Assembly (NCBI GenBank): GCA_003644825.1
Contig: QNDJ01000053.1
Coordinates: 1 to 8,225, forward strand
From: B21-G16 sp003644825 [NCBI: Candidatus Zhuqueibacterota bacterium]
GTDB taxonomy: Bacteria > SM23-31 > B21-G16
Reading direction: 5' to 3'
Length of the DNA stretch: 8,225 nt
The notes under the pieces are model-generated. The model was not told the origin of the DNA and made no database searches. It saw only the letters and a list, made by a program, of their open reading frames with translations. Positions 1,094 to 8,213 of this stretch are shown in pieces; positions within the stretch are counted from its first letter, which is position 1; each line of letters opens with the position of its first letter. Position numbers and translations under genes: made by a program.

Positions 1094-1137
1094 ATACTTG
1101 AGTTAAAAAATATCTATATTAAAAACTGAGGAATAAA

Positions 1138-4100
1138 ATGAATAAATGGTCCGAATTTTATAAGTCAAGAATGAGTTATGAAGAGCATTTAAAAGCAAAT
1201 TATTTAAGGGAATTCCTGAAAAAAATTCTCAAATACTGGAATGGTGGACCGATTCTTGAAATAGGAACAGGAACCGGCTATTTATCCATATACTTGTCAA
1301 AAAACAGGATTGATGTAAAAGCCGTTGATAATGATGAAGATATACTGGAGAAATGCAGATTTTCTAATAATATTCTTGAAGGAAGTGCAGAGTTTATATA
1401 TTGTGATGCTTTTGAATTATCTTCAAAATTTAAAGATGAAGAGTTTGATGTTGTTTTTCATCAGGGGTTGTTTGAACATTTTTCTGATGAGGATATTACC
1501 AGGCTTTTAGAAGAGCAATTTAAGATTGGGAAATACGTTTTGTTCAGTGTTCCTTCGAAATATTATCCTCAAAAAGATTTTGGTGATGAAAGACTAATGG
1601 ATAAAGAAGCATGGCTTCAAATTTTAAGTTCTTATAATAAATTTATTATTGAGATTGAGTATCATGGACATACTGAAGGTTCAAAGGAACATTTGTTTTT
1701 TGCTATAAGGAGCCCCTATTTTAGATTACCCTCTGTAAAAAGGAGGATTAAAAAATCTGCAGTTATAAAAGGGAGAAGAACAAAACCAGAAATTGTATGG
1801 GAATCCTTAATATTTCATCCCAGTGGTTACGCAGCAATCGCAAGAAATACGGTTATTGGGCTTGATTATATAGGATTAAAGGTGTGTTTGAATCCTATGA
1901 CTCTTACTGTAAAAATGGATTATGACCTTGAAACGGTGCATAAATTGATTCATATGATTGAAAATAAACCATCGGGTAATTCGGTTTATGTTTTTCATCA
2001 TCCTCCTGCGGGTTTTAAAGGTGAGGATTTTTTTACAGAAGCTATAAAGAGAAACAGTGGAATGAAAAGGTATATTGGAAGTACTATGTTTGAGACTGAC
2101 AGGATTCCACCGATGTGGGTAAGTGCCTGCAACAAAATGGATGAAATATGGGTACCAACAAAATTTAATCTTGAAACTTTTTCAAGGTCAGGTGTTAGTA
2201 GAGAAAAAATAAAAGTTATTCCGTTTGGCATAGACCCTAAATTGTTCACAAAAAGAAAGTATGAAAAGATAAGTTTTCCGGGTAATAAAGGATTTAATTT
2301 TATCTCTGTTTTTGAATGGACAAAAAGAAAAGGCTGGGATATTTTACTTAAAGCATATCTTACAGAATTTGATTACAGAGAAGATGTTGCTTTAAATCTG
2401 TTTGTTTATCGTGGTTCCGGGACTGACTTAAATGATAAAGAATCTATTTCAGTAAAGGCATACAGGTATATTACAGAAGTTCTTGGGATTGACCCTTACA
2501 GGAAGCCTCATCTAAATATTATAGAAGCAGTGATACCTTATCATGAGATGCCCGGAATATATTTCTCTGCCGATGCATTTGTTCTTTCTTCAAGAGGGGA
2601 AGGCTGGGGGATGCCATATATGGAAGCGATGACTGCTGGATTACCTACAATCGCTACAAGATGGAGTGGTCAGCTACAGTTTATGAATGATGAAAATAGC
2701 TATTTAATTGATATTGATGGTCTTTCTCCTGTAGATTCCGAACAAATTAAGGATAACAGGTATTATGAAGGACATAAATGGGCTGAACCTTCTGTTACTC
2801 AAACTAAAAAACTTATGAGAAAAGTATTTACTGATAGAAAAGAAGCTCAACAGAAAGGTGAATATGCAAAATATGATATTCTTAATAATTGGACAATTAT
2901 CAACACTGCTCATAAAATAGAAAAAAGAGTAATGGAGATAATAGAAGAAGAATCGAAAACTCGAATTCCAGTTTCAGTTAATAGAAATATGAAGATTGAT
3001 GAGCAAATAGTGTGGAATTCACCTGTGTTTGATATTAGTGGATATGCTGAAGAAGCGAGAAATTTAATCCTTGGATTATATGAATATTCTGATATTGATA
3101 TTAAATTAAAACCTGTGAACTGGAGCAATATTAAATCTGAATTAGATGAAAAGGAAAAACATATACTTGAAAGATTAATTGAAAATGAAGAAAAGAAAAA
3201 ATATATAAATTTGTATAATATTTTTCCTTCATTTTTTGAACGGAATGAAAAAGCGGTTTATAACATAGGAAGAACCCTTTTTGAGACTGACAGAATACCC
3301 GGGGATTGGGTGGATAAATGCAATGAAATGGATGAGATATGGGTTCCATCGGATTTTAATATTGATACTTTTTCAAAATCTGGTGTTATAAGAGAGAAAT
3401 TATATAAAATTCCCGAATGCTTGGAACCGGAAAAATTTGACCCTGGTTTGGCACCTCTTTATATTCCTGAAAAGAAAGAATTCAACTTTATATCAATATT
3501 TGACTGGAGCTTAAGAAAGGGCTGGGATGTTCTTCTTAGAGCTTTTATTGAAGAATTTTCACCGGATGAAGAAGTTTCTCTAACTTTGAAAACATATTCT
3601 TCCTATGGATTAAGCGGAGAAGATATACAGGAAATAATTGTGGATTTTATAAGGAACCGTCTGAAGAGAGAGCTCGAAAAAGCTCCAAGGGTAATTCTTA
3701 TAAGTAAATTAATGTCTGAAAAAGAATTACTTCAGTTTTACAGAACAGGAGATGCATTTGTTTTACCATCGAGAGGAGAAGGATGGGGTAGGCCATTGAT
3801 GGAAGCAATGGCAATGGGACTGCCTGTAATTGGTACCCGATGGAGTGGAAACCTGGAGTTTATGAACGATAGAAATTCTTATCTTATAGATTGTTCGATT
3901 GTAAATGTTAGTAAAGAAGCTGTTAAAGAGGTTTCTTATTTTGAGGGTCATAAGTGGGCTGAACCATCGGTTGAACACCTGAAAAAAACTATGAGATTTA
4001 TATTTGAAAATTATGATAAGGCTATGGAAAAAGGAAAAATAGCTAGAGATGATATCATAAATAAATTTTCCAGAAAAACTGTTGCAAATCTTATTCAAGA

Positions 4101-5934
4101 AAGATTGGATTTTTTGAGAAAAAACAATTTTAAAGTAAAATCCAGAACTAAGAACTATGAAATAAAAAGTGGAAAAATTGCAGGAAAAAAAATTGAGAAA
4201 CCTTCAGTAGTATGGGAGGGGTCACAGTTTGTTTATCACAGTTTTGGGCTTGTAAACCGGGAAATGTGTTCTGCTCTTATAGGTTTAAATGGATGTAATC
4301 TGAGTATTAAATTATATGAAAAGCACGAGTTTGATTCTGGAGTTGAACCTGTTCGGTTAAGAACTCTTGAAAATTATTTTGGTAAGAAATTTATAGGAAA
4401 ACCTGATTTCTGGATTAAACATAAATGGCCACCTGATTTTAATAGGCCAGAAACTAAATACTGGATTGTAATTCAACCCTGGGAATATGGTAGTCTGCCC
4501 CGCAACTGGATTGAACCAATGAATAATACTGTTGATGAGCTATGGGTTCCGAGTAGTTTTGTAAAAAAATGTTATATTGAAAGTGGAATAAATCCCGACA
4601 AAATTTTTGTTATTCCTGATGGAGTAAATACATCTATTTTTAATCCATACAGAGAACCTCTGGAGTTAAATACTGATAAATCGTTTAAATTTTTATTTGT
4701 TGGTGGTTCTATCTGGAGAAAAGGGATTGATGTTCTTTTGAAGGTTTACACAAGTTTATTTTCAAAGCATGATGATGTTTGCCTTGTAATAAAAGATATG
4801 GGACAGGATACTTTTTATAAAGGGCAGGGGGCTGTAAATACAATAAAGAAAATTATGAAAGATAAAAATTCTGCTGAAATTATTTATATTGATAAGAAAC
4901 TTACTGAAAACCAGATAGCTGGTTTATATACGGCTTGTAATTGTCTTGTACATCCATACAGGGGTGAAGGATTTGGTTTACCGGTTGCTGAAGCTATGGC
5001 TTGCGGATTACCAGTTATTGTAACAAAGGGAGGTGCCTGTGATGATTTTTGTACCGATGAAATTGTCTACTGGGTTTCTTCCAGTAGGAAGGAAGTAGAA
5101 ATTAAAGAAAAATTGATTGGTCAGGGGTGGGTACTTGAACCTGACCCGGGTGAACTGGCTGTTCAGATGAAAAAGGTGGTGGATAATTATGAGGAAGCTC
5201 GTGAGAAAGGGGAAAGAGCAGAAGTTTATGTGAGAAATAATTTAACCTGGAAAATTTCAGCAGAAAAGATTATAGAAAGATTTCAGGAGGTTTTAAATAA
5301 AATGGAACAAAATAGTAAAAGTGATTTAATTAAAAAAGAAGCAGAAAATGGAAAAATAGACCCCGATAAGTTTTTAGAAGAAGCAAGAGAATTGTTTGAA
5401 AATGGTAGACTTGAAGATTCTTATAAAAAGTATGAGGAATTATATAAGTTGAAGCCGGATAACTCTGAGGTTCTCCTTGGATATGGTGCTGTTTCATTTA
5501 AGCTTAAAAAATTGGAAGAAGCAGAAAGACTTTTTAAAGAGGGGATTAAATTATTTCCTGAAAATCCAGAATTTTATAATAATATTGGATGTGTTATGTT
5601 TCAGAAGGGTAGATATGATGAAGCAGAAAAGAATTTTAGAGAATCAATAAAACTTGATAGTGAAAATTTGAATGCTGAAAAAAACTTTGCAAATTTTTTG
5701 TTGCAAACTGGAAAATACAGAGAAGTAATTCCGGTTTGTGAAAATATACTGAATAAGTACCCTGATGAAATTGAGACAATGGTAATACTTGGTAATTGTT
5801 GTTATTATTTAAATTTTGTAGATGAAGCAATAAAACTCTACGAAAAAGCCCTTTCTATCTCTCCTGATTTTGAAGATGCAAGAGTAAATTTAGAACTTGT
5901 TAGAAAAAAGTTAGAGTATAAAAAACACCCTTAA
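1138..5934 (+). CDS. Five-part protein: SAM methyltransferase, three GT4-type glycosyltransferase domains, TPR array
   Basis: The product has 1598 residues. ATG follows GAGGA (1128-1132) with 5-nt spacing, 44 nt after the sulfatase, so the two are probably co-transcribed. Residues 1-200 are a class I methyltransferase: motif I ILEIGTGTG (39-47), acidic AVDND (62-66), FDVVFHQGLFEHF (103-115). Three GT-B domains follow, about 218-603, 621-995 and 1022-1390. Each has an RKG phosphate-site segment (397-399, 793-795, 1194-1196) and an EX7E motif (E488/E496, E881/E889, E1277/E1285), as in retaining GT4 enzymes using nucleotide sugars. Domains 1 and 2 are close paralogues: both have FETDRIP, TRWSG and EGHKWAEPSV. 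Domain 3 is more distant. Residues 1411-1580 are five exact 34-residue TPRs with a capping helix. No signal peptide or membrane segment is seen, so it is likely cytoplasmic. Probable role: building and methylating a surface or protein-linked glycan; sugars and acceptor are unknown. No internal stop or frameshift is seen. Confidence 0.93.
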   Translation: MNKWSEFYKSRMSYEEHLKANYLREFLKKILKYWNGGPILEIGTGTGYLSIYLSKNRIDVKAVDNDEDILEKCRFSNNILEGSAEFIYCDAFELSSKFKDEEFDVVFHQGLFEHFSDEDITRLLEEQFKIGKYVLFSVPSKYYPQKDFGDERLMDKEAWLQILSSYNKFIIEIEYHGHTEGSKEHLFFAIRSPYFRLPSVKRRIKKSAVIKGRRTKPEIVWESLIFHPSGYAAIARNTVIGLDYIGLKVCLNPMTLTVKMDYDLETVHKLIHMIENKPSGNSVYVFHHPPAGFKGEDFFTEAIKRNSGMKRYIGSTMFETDRIPPMWVSACNKMDEIWVPTKFNLETFSRSGVSREKIKVIPFGIDPKLFTKRKYEKISFPGNKGFNFISVFEWTKRKGWDILLKAYLTEFDYREDVALNLFVYRGSGTDLNDKESISVKAYRYITEVLGIDPYRKPHLNIIEAVIPYHEMPGIYFSADAFVLSSRGEGWGMPYMEAMTAGLPTIATRWSGQLQFMNDENSYLIDIDGLSPVDSEQIKDNRYYEGHKWAEPSVTQTKKLMRKVFTDRKEAQQKGEYAKYDILNNWTIINTAHKIEKRVMEIIEEESKTRIPVSVNRNMKIDEQIVWNSPVFDISGYAEEARNLILGLYEYSDIDIKLKPVNWSNIKSELDEKEKHILERLIENEEKKKYINLYNIFPSFFERNEKAVYNIGRTLFETDRIPGDWVDKCNEMDEIWVPSDFNIDTFSKSGVIREKLYKIPECLEPEKFDPGLAPLYIPEKKEFNFISIFDWSLRKGWDVLLRAFIEEFSPDEEVSLTLKTYSSYGLSGEDIQEIIVDFIRNRLKRELEKAPRVILISKLMSEKELLQFYRTGDAFVLPSRGEGWGRPLMEAMAMGLPVIGTRWSGNLEFMNDRNSYLIDCSIVNVSKEAVKEVSYFEGHKWAEPSVEHLKKTMRFIFENYDKAMEKGKIARDDIINKFSRKTVANLIQERLDFLRKNNFKVKSRTKNYEIKSGKIAGKKIEKPSVVWEGSQFVYHSFGLVNREMCSALIGLNGCNLSIKLYEKHEFDSGVEPVRLRTLENYFGKKFIGKPDFWIKHKWPPDFNRPETKYWIVIQPWEYGSLPRNWIEPMNNTVDELWVPSSFVKKCYIESGINPDKIFVIPDGVNTSIFNPYREPLELNTDKSFKFLFVGGSIWRKGIDVLLKVYTSLFSKHDDVCLVIKDMGQDTFYKGQGAVNTIKKIMKDKNSAEIIYIDKKLTENQIAGLYTACNCLVHPYRGEGFGLPVAEAMACGLPVIVTKGGACDDFCTDEIVYWVSSSRKEVEIKEKLIGQGWVLEPDPGELAVQMKKVVDNYEEAREKGERAEVYVRNNLTWKISAEKIIERFQEVLNKMEQNSKSDLIKKEAENGKIDPDKFLEEARELFENGRLEDSYKKYEELYKLKPDNSEVLLGYGAVSFKLKKLEEAERLFKEGIKLFPENPEFYNNIGCVMFQKGRYDEAEKNFRESIKLDSENLNAEKNFANFLLQTGKYREVIPVCENILNKYPDEIETMVILGNCCYYLNFVDEAIKLYEKALSISPDFEDARVNLELVRKKLEYKKHP

Positions 5935-6102: not shown

Positions 6103-6148
6103 TTTTATTTAACAGGGAAAGTTGATTTTATTTAACAGGGATAGTTAA
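6103..6148 (+). repeat. 23-bp tandem duplication containing the ribosome-binding site
   Basis: Copies 6103-6125 and 6126-6148 match at 21 of 23 positions; each begins TTTTATTTAACAGGGA. The mismatches are at repeat positions 17 and 22. The second copy ends exactly at the base before the TTG start, so its AACAGGGA supplies the Shine-Dalgarno of the next gene. A third AACAGGGA, without the rest of the unit, is at 6064-6071. Confidence 0.85.
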
Positions 6149-6151
6149 TTG
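6137..6151 (+). promoter_or_regulatory. Ribosome-binding site and TTG start of the GT2 gene
   Basis: AGGGA (6137-6141) lies 7 nt before TTG (6149-6151). An in-frame TAA at 6146-6148 directly abuts the TTG, so translation cannot begin further upstream in this frame. The first in-frame ATG is at codon 48 and would delete the nucleotide-binding strand FIIPVQNEE, so TTG is the start that preserves the fold. Confidence 0.72.
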
Positions 6152-7252
6152 TATAAAGTAAGCTTCATAATTCCAGTTCAAAATGAGGAAAAATACATAT
6201 CAGGTTGTCTTGAGTCAATTTTTAACAGTACTTACAGAAATATAGAAGTCATTGTTGTGGATAATGGGTCTACTGATAATACTAAAGAGATGCTGTTACC
6301 TTACCTTGACAGAATCACCTATATTTTCCGGGATAGTGGAGGTATTGCATCAGCAAGAAATCTCGGGTTTGAAAAATCAAACGGAAAATTGCTTGCTTTT
6401 GTAGATGCTGATGATATTACGGGAAAGATGAGAATTGAGCTTCAGGTTAAAAAGATGCTGGAAAATGAAAAGTTAGGTATGGTGTTCTGTGGATGCACAT
6501 ATATCAACGATAATGGTAGTTTCTTGCACGGGGTTGGTAGATTTCCTGAATTTGATAAAGCTAAATTTATTGGAATGATGTTTGAAAAAAACAGAATTTT
6601 GTCTATTTCGACAACATTAATACGGCGAAATGTTCTTGAGGATGTTGGTGTTTTTGATGAATCGCTTCCTTTTCTTGAGGATTATGATTTGTGGTTAAGG
6701 ATAGGCAGAAAATATCCTGTTGATTATATAGATTTACCAATTACAAGGATAAGAAAACACTCAGATAATTACAGAAAAAAATGGAAAAACACAAAAGAGT
6801 TAGAAAAACAAATTTTGTTAAAACACGATTTAAGAGAAATAGCATCTTCTCTTGCAATGGTTTACGATAATGAAGAAGATTTCAGGGTTTCATTTGGTAA
6901 AATATTATTAAAGACTGGAAATCGGATCGAAGCTGTAAAAAACTTTGTTAAGGCTTTGAAGCTAAATCCTGATAATTTTGAAGCCCATTTCCTTATCGGG
7001 AACTATTATTTTGAAAATAAGGAAATTGATAGAGCTGTTGTTTCCTACAAGAGGTGTTTAAGGATTAATCCACAGCACGCTGAATGCAGAAACAATCTTG
7101 GTGTATTGCTATATTATAAAGGTGATATAGCAAACTCCAGAATGGAATTTGAAAAGGCAAAAAGTATAAAATCTAATTTTGTGGATGCTGAATTTAATTT
7201 AAGTTGTATTAGGAAAAATTCTGGTATACATAAATTAAGGCTACATATTTAA
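6149..7252 (+). CDS. GT2-family (GT-A) glycosyltransferase with C-terminal TPRs
   Basis: The product has 367 residues and starts at TTG. The first 200 or so residues form a GT2 domain: FIIPVQNEE (7-15), VVDNGSTDNT (36-45), SARN (68-71), the metal/nucleotide DXD region FVDADD (84-89), and the acceptor-side FLEDYDLWLR (175-184) that carries the usual catalytic acidic pair. Family members are inverting transferases that use UDP-, GDP- or dTDP-sugars. Residues about 245-346 are three 34-residue TPRs (KALKLNPDNFE; RCLRINPQHAE; LGVLLYYKGD) and a capping helix. No membrane segment is seen, so it is likely a cytoplasmic or membrane-peripheral enzyme. It lies 214 nt after the triple-glycosyltransferase gene, which has a similar TPR tail, suggesting both act on one product or in one complex. 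Donor and acceptor cannot be read from the sequence. Confidence 0.92.
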   Translation: MYKVSFIIPVQNEEKYISGCLESIFNSTYRNIEVIVVDNGSTDNTKEMLLPYLDRITYIFRDSGGIASARNLGFEKSNGKLLAFVDADDITGKMRIELQVKKMLENEKLGMVFCGCTYINDNGSFLHGVGRFPEFDKAKFIGMMFEKNRILSISTTLIRRNVLEDVGVFDESLPFLEDYDLWLRIGRKYPVDYIDLPITRIRKHSDNYRKKWKNTKELEKQILLKHDLREIASSLAMVYDNEEDFRVSFGKILLKTGNRIEAVKNFVKALKLNPDNFEAHFLIGNYYFENKEIDRAVVSYKRCLRINPQHAECRNNLGVLLYYKGDIANSRMEFEKAKSIKSNFVDAEFNLSCIRKNSGIHKLRLHI

Positions 7253-7442: not shown

Positions 7443-8213
7443 ATGGCTGAGTATGATAATCTGGCTGAGTATTATGATTGGGAATGGAAAAATCTTATTC
7501 AGGATATACCTTTAATTGTGGAGCTTGCAAAGAATGCAGGAAGTCCTGTTCTTGAACTTGCCTGTGGAACAGGAAGGGTTACATTTCCAGTTGCAGAAAG
7601 TGGTATAGAAATTTATGGAATTGATAATTCTTCTCTTATGTTGGACTATGCAAGAAAAAAATTGGCTCAATACCCTGATGATGTAAAAAATAATGTAAAA
7701 TTGATACAGGGGAATATGAAGGATTTTTGCCTGAATAAGAGGTTTAATTTTATTTTCATTTCCTTTAATTCATTTCTTTTGCTGTATAAAAAGGAAGATC
7801 AGGAACAGTGTTTAAATACTGTAAGAAAACATCTTGATGATAATGGGATTTTTTATATAGATGTTTACTCTCCGAGGTTTGAGTTCTGTGCGGAGGAAAA
7901 ATCACCTATAAGGTTTTTACAGCATTTTTATATCCCTGATACAAAAAAGGTCGTTTTACAATGGGAATATGTTGAACGGAATATGGCTGAACAGATATCA
8001 GAAATTGATTTTTTGTATGAAGAATATGATAAAAACGGAAATCTTACAAGAAAAGCAAGGCATTTAACAATGGGAATTGTTTTTCGCTTTGAGATGCAGT
8101 TTATGCTTGAAAAAAATGGATTTGAAGTTATTGAGTTTTATGGAAATTATGACAAAAAAAGGTTCGATACTAAAAGCCCTCAAATGATTTTTATTTGTAA
8201 GAAAAAGTTTTAA
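7443..8213 (+). CDS. Class I SAM-dependent methyltransferase
   Basis: The product has 256 residues. ATG follows AGGGGA (7433-7438) with 4-nt spacing. The Rossmann core shows motif I VLELACGTGR (36-45), the ribose-binding acidic residue in YGIDNS (D61), GNMKDF (90-95) as the adenine-side motif, and the strand FNFIFISFNSFLLL (101-114), followed by HLDDNGIFYIDVYSP (130-144). The C-terminal half (WEYVERN, HLTMGIVFRFEMQFMLEKNGF) resembles small-molecule or sugar methyltransferases of the Methyltransf_25 type. The substrate is not evident. It differs from the methyltransferase domain of the triple-glycosyltransferase protein beyond the shared SAM fold. It has its own promoter after a terminator, so it may be only loosely tied to the upstream operon. 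Length is normal and the gene looks intact. Confidence 0.9.
   Translation: MAEYDNLAEYYDWEWKNLIQDIPLIVELAKNAGSPVLELACGTGRVTFPVAESGIEIYGIDNSSLMLDYARKKLAQYPDDVKNNVKLIQGNMKDFCLNKRFNFIFISFNSFLLLYKKEDQEQCLNTVRKHLDDNGIFYIDVYSPRFEFCAEEKSPIRFLQHFYIPDTKKVVLQWEYVERNMAEQISEIDFLYEEYDKNGNLTRKARHLTMGIVFRFEMQFMLEKNGFEVIEFYGNYDKKRFDTKSPQMIFICKKKF

Follow-up and report, generated by a model that had tools for sequence, protein, structure and literature searches.

A 1598-residue protein joining a methyltransferase, three GT4 glycosyltransferase domains and a TPR tail, a candidate flagellar-glycosylation enzyme

The window, meaning the whole stretch of DNA analysed here, is one entire contig of 8225 bases from a 2.48 Mb genome (493 contigs, 83.6% complete), and it carries a gene whose single product joins a class I SAM-dependent methyltransferase domain, three GT4 domains (D1, D2 and D3) and a C-terminal TPR tail. 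With moderate confidence, this product is regarded as a cytoplasmic flagellar-glycosylation enzyme, the TPRs of which would bind flagellin while a short methylated glycan is built on it. Direct support comes from the domain anatomy, the intact motifs, the predicted GT-B folds, a module order that recurs in relatives, the co-occurrence of the family with flagellin in one class and the location of several relatives close to flagellar genes; which acceptor the organism uses, in what order the domains act, the nature of the sugars and the role of the methyl group are matters of inference. The flagellin reading is weakened by the lack of any flagellar gene on the 8225-base contig itself and of a further multi-glycosyltransferase relative in the same phylum (six genomes), as well as by the relative L035, which is devoid of TPRs. 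In general, TPRs bind many proteins. The features of the contig are collected in Table 1.

Table 1. Features of the window, with positions counted from its first base.
Feature	Position	Strand	Basis
Sulfatase-like protein with C-terminal DUF4214, upstream, truncated by the contig start	2-1093	+	Pfam
GAGG, possible ribosome-binding site, six bases 5' of the ATG	1128..1131	+	Read from sequence, putative
Whole gene: methyltransferase - GT4 D1 - GT4 D2 - GT4 D3 - TPR, 1598 aa	1138..5934	+	ORF, Pfam, motifs
Methyltransferase domain of class I (SAM-dependent), roughly residues 1-195, with motif I at 1252-1278	1138..1722	+	Pfam PF13649 and others
GT4 domain D1, residues 226-613; EX7E at 2599-2625	1813..2976	+	Pfam, motif, AlphaFold2
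GT4 domain D2, residues 631-1006; EX7E at 3778-3804	3028..4155	+	Pfam, motif, AlphaFold2
GT4 domain D3, residues 1031-1397; EX7E at 4966-4992	4228..5328	+	Pfam, motif, tree, AlphaFold2, Foldseek
Five TPR units, residues 1410-1579	5365..5874	+	Pfam, own TPR profile, AlphaFold2, Foldseek
GT2 glycosyltransferase with TPRs, TTG start, downstream, possible partner	6149..7252	+	Pfam
Second methyltransferase, downstream	7443-8213	+	Pfam, NCBIfam

An earlier note on this DNA had described one uninterrupted 1598-residue frame with a SAM motif, three GT-B domains all keeping EX7E and five TPRs, a description borne out by the ORF, Pfam and motif analyses and, for the GT-B fold, by predicted structure. 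The frame starts with ATG and contains zero internal stops. Against the whole protein, Pfam matched Methyltransf_25 at residues 39-128 (1e-12), Glycos_transf_1 in three stretches (3e-46) and TPR families over roughly 1410-1581. When pieces were scanned separately, methyltransferase families were the sole Pfam matches in residues 1-225, and Glycos_transf_1 was found in D1, D2 and D3 at 2.8e-11, 1.3e-13 and 1.5e-21, respectively. The glycine-rich motif I of the methyltransferase reads ILEIGTGTG (residues 39-47), and EX7E is kept in all three glycosyltransferase domains as EGWGMPYME (488-496), EGWGRPLME (881-889) and EGFGLPVAE (1277-1285). D1 and D2 share 42% identity, while D3 is about 30% identical to either; the TPRs number at least five, this being the number of units placed by our own profile. 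Neither a Maf domain nor a kinase family was matched at E<=0.01 in residues 1-1409 (Pfam, four pieces). G+C and third-position G+C are uniform over the domains and the neighbouring genes.

Structure prediction of the chain, as the earlier note had proposed, succeeded for D1, D2, D3 and the TPRs, but not for residues 1-215, where pLDDT stayed under 50 with an alignment devoid of methyltransferase relatives; the methyltransferase assignment therefore rests on Pfam and motif I. The AlphaFold2 model of D3 with the TPRs reached a mean pLDDT of 86, and its Foldseek matches in the PDB include GT4 enzymes and the TPR superhelix of OGT. D1 and D2 were modelled with pLDDT mostly of 60-97 in ten-residue blocks, and the D1-D2 model found as its top PDB match the capsule synthesis multienzyme 8qoy, at a TM-score of 0.24. 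The two-Rossmann GT-B fold appears in the predicted models of D1, D2 and D3, by which all three GT4 domains are predicted to be complete GT-B domains. Membership of the OGT/SPINDLY family (GT41) was ruled out, as the catalytic domains belong to GT4 and the TPRs stand last; in the search of the PDB, it is the TPR part of the protein that aligns with the OGT chains listed.

Relatives were sought at several depths. A search at E<=0.001 matched 97 of 98 genomes, largely via the TPRs and common GT4 stretches, and thus says little; at E<=1e-20, matches were retained in 21 of 386 genomes spread over the domain (the window's genome included), most of them covering one GT4. The other five genomes of the same phylum lack a multi-glycosyltransferase relative, and in the phylum of G141 one of four genomes gave a match at E<=1e-40. 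Scanning of genome contigs uncovered eight loci, the best relatives being L035 from Chloroflexi (42% over residues 217-1388) and L038 from Ignavibacteria (40% over 229-1496). D1-D2-D3 is co-linear in these two proteins at 40-42%, and D2-D3 is found in seven further proteins; the identity of the D2-D3 core is 34-42% in L035, L036, L038, L082, L118, L120 and others, to which L035 and L038 add D1. In a tree of 76 GT4 domains, the bootstrap of which is not fully settled, D1 is joined by its counterparts from L035 and L038 (100/95), D2 belongs to a clade of 12 rows (96/93) and D3 to one of 50 rows (100/99). Rows from L090-L117, L158, L162-L164, L087, L136, L143 and L146 were omitted as duplicates or near-duplicates, L087 being a weak match. 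Since the tree unites D1, D2 and D3 with domains from other phyla, the D1-D2-D3 order is old or exchanged between phyla rather than local, and the position of the nearest relatives in other phyla suggests horizontal transfer.

By sequence comparison, D3 is the module common to a flagella-linked family. Of 52 frames from the fetched loci, 48 have a D3-type GT4 as their final module of glycosyltransferase or methyltransferase type, the exceptions being L035, L037, L083 and L122, each with a GT2 after D3 and L035 also with another GT4. TPRs follow D3 in 16 of the 18 frames run through Pfam (L016, L036, L038, L082, L118, L120, L121, L129, L133, L150, L151, L152, L153, L155, L157 and L166), by which the tails were counted, our own TPR profile being insensitive; of the remaining two, L037 has TPRs only behind its GT2 and L035 has none. 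The N-terminus is variable, consisting mostly of GT2 modules, further GT4 modules and sometimes a methyltransferase, as illustrated by five GT2 modules in L133, L136 and L119, a GT2 with two GT4s in L118 and L082, and a methyltransferase followed by one GT4 in L150, L151, L152, L153, L155, L157, L166 and L129. L089 is a plain methyltransferase-GT4 fusion. The search for the order methyltransferase, three GT4s and TPRs, called for in the earlier note, returned none besides the window among 64 other frames (68 were listed, including the window's own and three duplicates).

Some members of the family deserve separate mention. The longest glycosyltransferase frame seen, which has 4541 residues and combines five GT2 modules with a methyltransferase and GT4 modules, is L119:1571-15193 (-) in G485, and five consecutive GT2 modules precede a D3-type GT4 within a single frame in L133:4982-13276 (-) and L136:8388-16667 (-). 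The methyltransferase of the L150 type was considered degenerate at one point, wrongly, as its LGCG motif is kept and it represents another subfamily, of which Pfam covers mainly the second half. A methyltransferase in L120, a weak match to our own profile, was unsupported by Pfam at 1e-4.

Physical linkage to flagellar genes was assessed in the nine relatives carrying D2-D3 in one frame (G386, G389, G387, G388, G141, G495, G485, G412 and G491), with flagellin distances taken from the matches listed and from our own flagellin profile run on the fetched stretches. In five of the nine, a flagellin gene or another flagellar gene is found at a distance of roughly 10 kb or less. Among the matches listed, flagellin is 2.4-5.4 kb off the match in G141, G495, G412 and G491, and the gene order in G495 is multi-glycosyltransferase, TPR protein, GT2-TPR, two flagellins and FliD. 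In the Chloroflexi genome G386, which has D1-D2-D3, a same-strand run of FliW, FlgL-like, FlgK, FlgN, FlgF/G-like and sigma factor genes is about 8 kb away. G389, also with D1-D2-D3, has no flagellin in its genome among the matches listed; in G485 the gene is close to the end of its contig and the flagellins listed map to a different one; G387 and G388 have contigs of just 4.9 and 6.8 kb, too short for linkage to be judged.

Outside the nine, flagellin is about 10 kb off the D3-TPR match in G053, with FliD farther out; in G674 it lies some 2 kb off a frame of GT2-D3 type, which is not counted as it is devoid of D2. In G296, D2- and D3-type domains are encoded by different frames, and none of the flagellins listed maps to the contig carrying them. 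A linkage in G541 was rejected as probably due to chance, a DNA polymerase beta-clamp gene standing between the match and a flagellin about 6.5 kb off. At L184 and L035 (G386:C221), the flagellar run is followed, about 8 kb on, by the multi-glycosyltransferase gene, a DegT aminotransferase, a rhamnosyl O-methyltransferase-like gene and a methyltransferase, a cluster which looks like a flagellar glycosylation island.

For the wider family, 119 of 132 selected neighbours were scanned (13 were dropped to limit the set), after exclusion of proteins longer than 900 residues or matching our own glycosyltransferase, methyltransferase, TPR or flagellin profiles. Among the 25 of 189 matched families listed, the neighbours are mostly housekeeping genes with no clear signature, and neither Wzm/Wzt-like genes nor an O-antigen cluster recurs. 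In two of three genomes, own-class relatives of the window methyltransferase have flagellin in their vicinity, an ambiguous result. Two of these methyltransferase relatives near flagellin, L159 (G001:C115) and L187 (G003:C271), are located directly 5' of a TMEM260-like O-mannosyltransferase gene.

Co-occurrence was examined across 294 genomes from the class to which the Ignavibacteria relative L038 belongs; 118 of these genomes possess Flagellin_N. With the best two candidates per genome scored, at least 51 genomes carry a D2/D3-type match at E<=1e-40, and flagellin is present in 50 of these 51 carriers vs 68 of the 243 others (Fisher 2e-22, relatedness ignored). As a control, one ordinary GT4 gene present in 138 of the 294 genomes was scored at E<=1e-30 instead of 1e-40, likewise ignoring kinship, and flagellin was found in 58 of 138 carriers vs 60 of 156 non-carriers (p=0.55). 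In these 294 genomes of one class, the D2/D3-type family follows flagella, whereas the ordinary GT4 does not.

No flagellar gene was found among the ORFs of the 8225-base contig with Pfam or our own flagellin profile, and the window holds no tRNA. The genome itself contains four Flagellin_N matches, among which are three complete frames of flagellin size located outside this contig. The GT2-TPR gene downstream shares its architecture with genes beside the flagellin-linked relatives but only 25-30% identity with them, and hence failed as a close syntenic marker. Just 5' of its TTG start is a 16-base direct repeat, TTTTATTTAACAGGGA, with copies at 6103-6118 and 6126-6141. The top NCBIfam match of the second methyltransferase is a daptide-type RiPP methyltransferase, at 111.7 bits well under the 175-bit cut-off, and the DUF4214 of the upstream ORF recurs in Alicyclobacillus, on a protein with GT2 and GT4 (L039:8939-11221).

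In the flagellar-glycosylation scheme, the TPR tail would hold flagellin, or a similar secreted protein, ahead of export. D3 would add the first or an early sugar and D2 and D1 would lengthen the chain with retaining linkages, an order proposed because D3 is the module that stays constant and adjoins the TPRs; the donor sugars cannot be read off the sequence. The N-terminal methyltransferase would then O-methylate a sugar, perhaps the outermost one, and may thereby halt growth. The earlier note had envisaged a self-contained builder that assembles and methylates a glycan, possibly on a TPR-bound protein. Glycan building with methylation on such a protein is the best fit, backed by the flagellar linkage of relatives and by the co-occurrence, but "self-contained" is doubtful because the GT2-TPR gene and the second methyltransferase sit downstream and may work on the same glycan. 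A bolder and rather doubtful extension pictures the whole family as assembly lines on protein with a logic like that of modular peptide synthetases, in which the TPRs would dock flagellin, D3 would attach the first sugar and each module of the changeable N-terminus (as many as five GT2s, additional GT4s, a methyltransferase) would contribute or alter a single residue; the glycan would then be spelled by the set of modules, perhaps by their order as read from the C-terminus.

A somewhat unlikely alternative is that the protein is a polymerase-terminator for a lipid-linked surface polysaccharide or S-layer glycan, with the glycosyltransferases making the repeat, the methyltransferase capping it and an ABC transporter exporting the product. 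WsaE shares this logic: a single soluble chain combines an N-terminal methyltransferase with two glycosyltransferases, and the cluster also encodes a TPR protein, WsaA, as a distinct product (PMC2943079). The top PDB hit of the D1-D2 model, a capsule multienzyme, points the same way, though at the TM-score given above. The L035 cluster includes DegT and rhamnosyl O-methyltransferase-like genes, but on the same contig as flagellar genes. Polysaccharide genes do occur beside the wider family (Epimerase 3, Polysacc_synt_2 2, GLF 2 and ABC_tran 4 of 119 neighbours), yet no polysaccharide cluster recurs among the 25 of 189 families listed, and no Wzm/Wzt or other export ABC gene was detected by Pfam among the other ORFs of the 8225 bases. 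This alternative also leaves the fused TPR tail and the flagellar linkage unexplained. The comparison with WbdA/WbdD of O-antigen synthesis drawn in the earlier note fits less well, given the lack of a kinase in residues 1-1409 and of a recurring O-antigen cluster among those families.

The acceptor might instead be another TPR-bound surface or secreted protein, with flagellin modified only in some relatives. G389, with the same core and no flagellin among the matches listed, points this way, as do the sulfatase-like ORF with DUF4214 upstream of the gene and the TMEM260-like O-mannosyltransferase that own-class methyltransferase relatives precede; against the near-complete presence of flagellin in carriers (50 of 51, one class), this is considered improbable. 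Far less probable still is an artefact in which separate genes were fused in assembly. The genome is fragmented and incomplete (493 contigs, 83.6%) and the exact order was seen once, but the fusion is not supported, because the core order recurs co-linearly in L035 and L038 at 40-42% and the composition of the single open frame is even; methyltransferase-GT4 fusions also arise independently, in L089 and eight other loci.

Should the preferred flagellar-glycosylation reading hold, the protein belongs to a broad, apparently uncharacterised family of large multi-glycosyltransferase proteins tied to flagella in uncultured bacteria. If module content predicts the flagellin glycan, the glycans of uncultured bacteria could become partly readable from gene architecture, and a single soluble chain could be used for making methylated oligosaccharides on proteins.

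The earlier note did not recognise the domain order as described. The exact order is indeed confined to the window among the frames examined, but a methyltransferase and glycosyltransferases in one chain are already known, from WsaE, C. difficile GT2, O7 ORF6 and GT41 enzymes as described in the cited papers, and so is the pairing of glycosyltransferase and TPRs for flagellin. For the three-GT4 combination and the D3-TPR modular family linked to flagella, no description was found in open-licence PMC papers, which is weak evidence of absence. Within that family the N-terminus is mostly GT2, and a methyltransferase directly before three GT4s was present in 0 of the 64 other frames.

TPRs behind a glycosyltransferase give Maf-1 its flagellin acceptor and site choice (study cited in PMC13317340), and glycosyltransferase plus TPR is taken there as the mark of a flagellin glycosyltransferase (PMC13317340). 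Maf-1 and the GT2-TPR enzymes resemble the window protein in their C-terminal TPRs and differ in belonging to other glycosyltransferase families with a single module, the window protein being without a Maf domain. WbdA, described as a dual-module polymerase, likewise has several glycosyltransferase modules, and K. pneumoniae O7 ORF6 combines a methyltransferase with two such modules in one chain (PMC11231755). Compared by description, ORF6 differs in its methyltransferase-kinase, coiled coil and GT2 modules (PMC11231755); the window protein gave no kinase match in residues 1-1409. Most GT41 enzymes of enterobacterial flagellin islands have methyltransferase domains, and these enzymes and GT2-30 share with the window protein the union of glycosyltransferase and methyltransferase in one flagellin-modifying protein; by description, they differ in relying on a single family, either GT41 (SPINDLY-like) or GT2 (PMC4875605).

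Functional parallels are found in two further systems. The type-B GT2 of C. difficile (CDR20291_0242) transfers two rhamnoses onto flagellin, carries a methyltransferase domain and, according to the authors, is responsible for rhamnose methylation (PMC5207246). Similar to the window protein, it unites glycosyltransferase and methyltransferase and is encoded in a flagellar locus; in contrast, its catalytic domain is Glycos_transf_2 (PF00535) instead of three GT4s, and "TPR" is absent from the main text of the paper, by whose description it was compared (PMC5207246). WsaE of Geobacillus stearothermophilus also carries an N-terminal methyltransferase and glycosyltransferases in one chain and provides the methyl cap, but differs, by description, in its two glycosyltransferase domains, the separate TPR protein WsaA, the lipid-linked S-layer glycan and the ABC exporter (PMC2943079, PMC3898925). 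Both enzymes serve as functional precedents, and the window protein is most likely a larger variant of the known flagellin enzymes.
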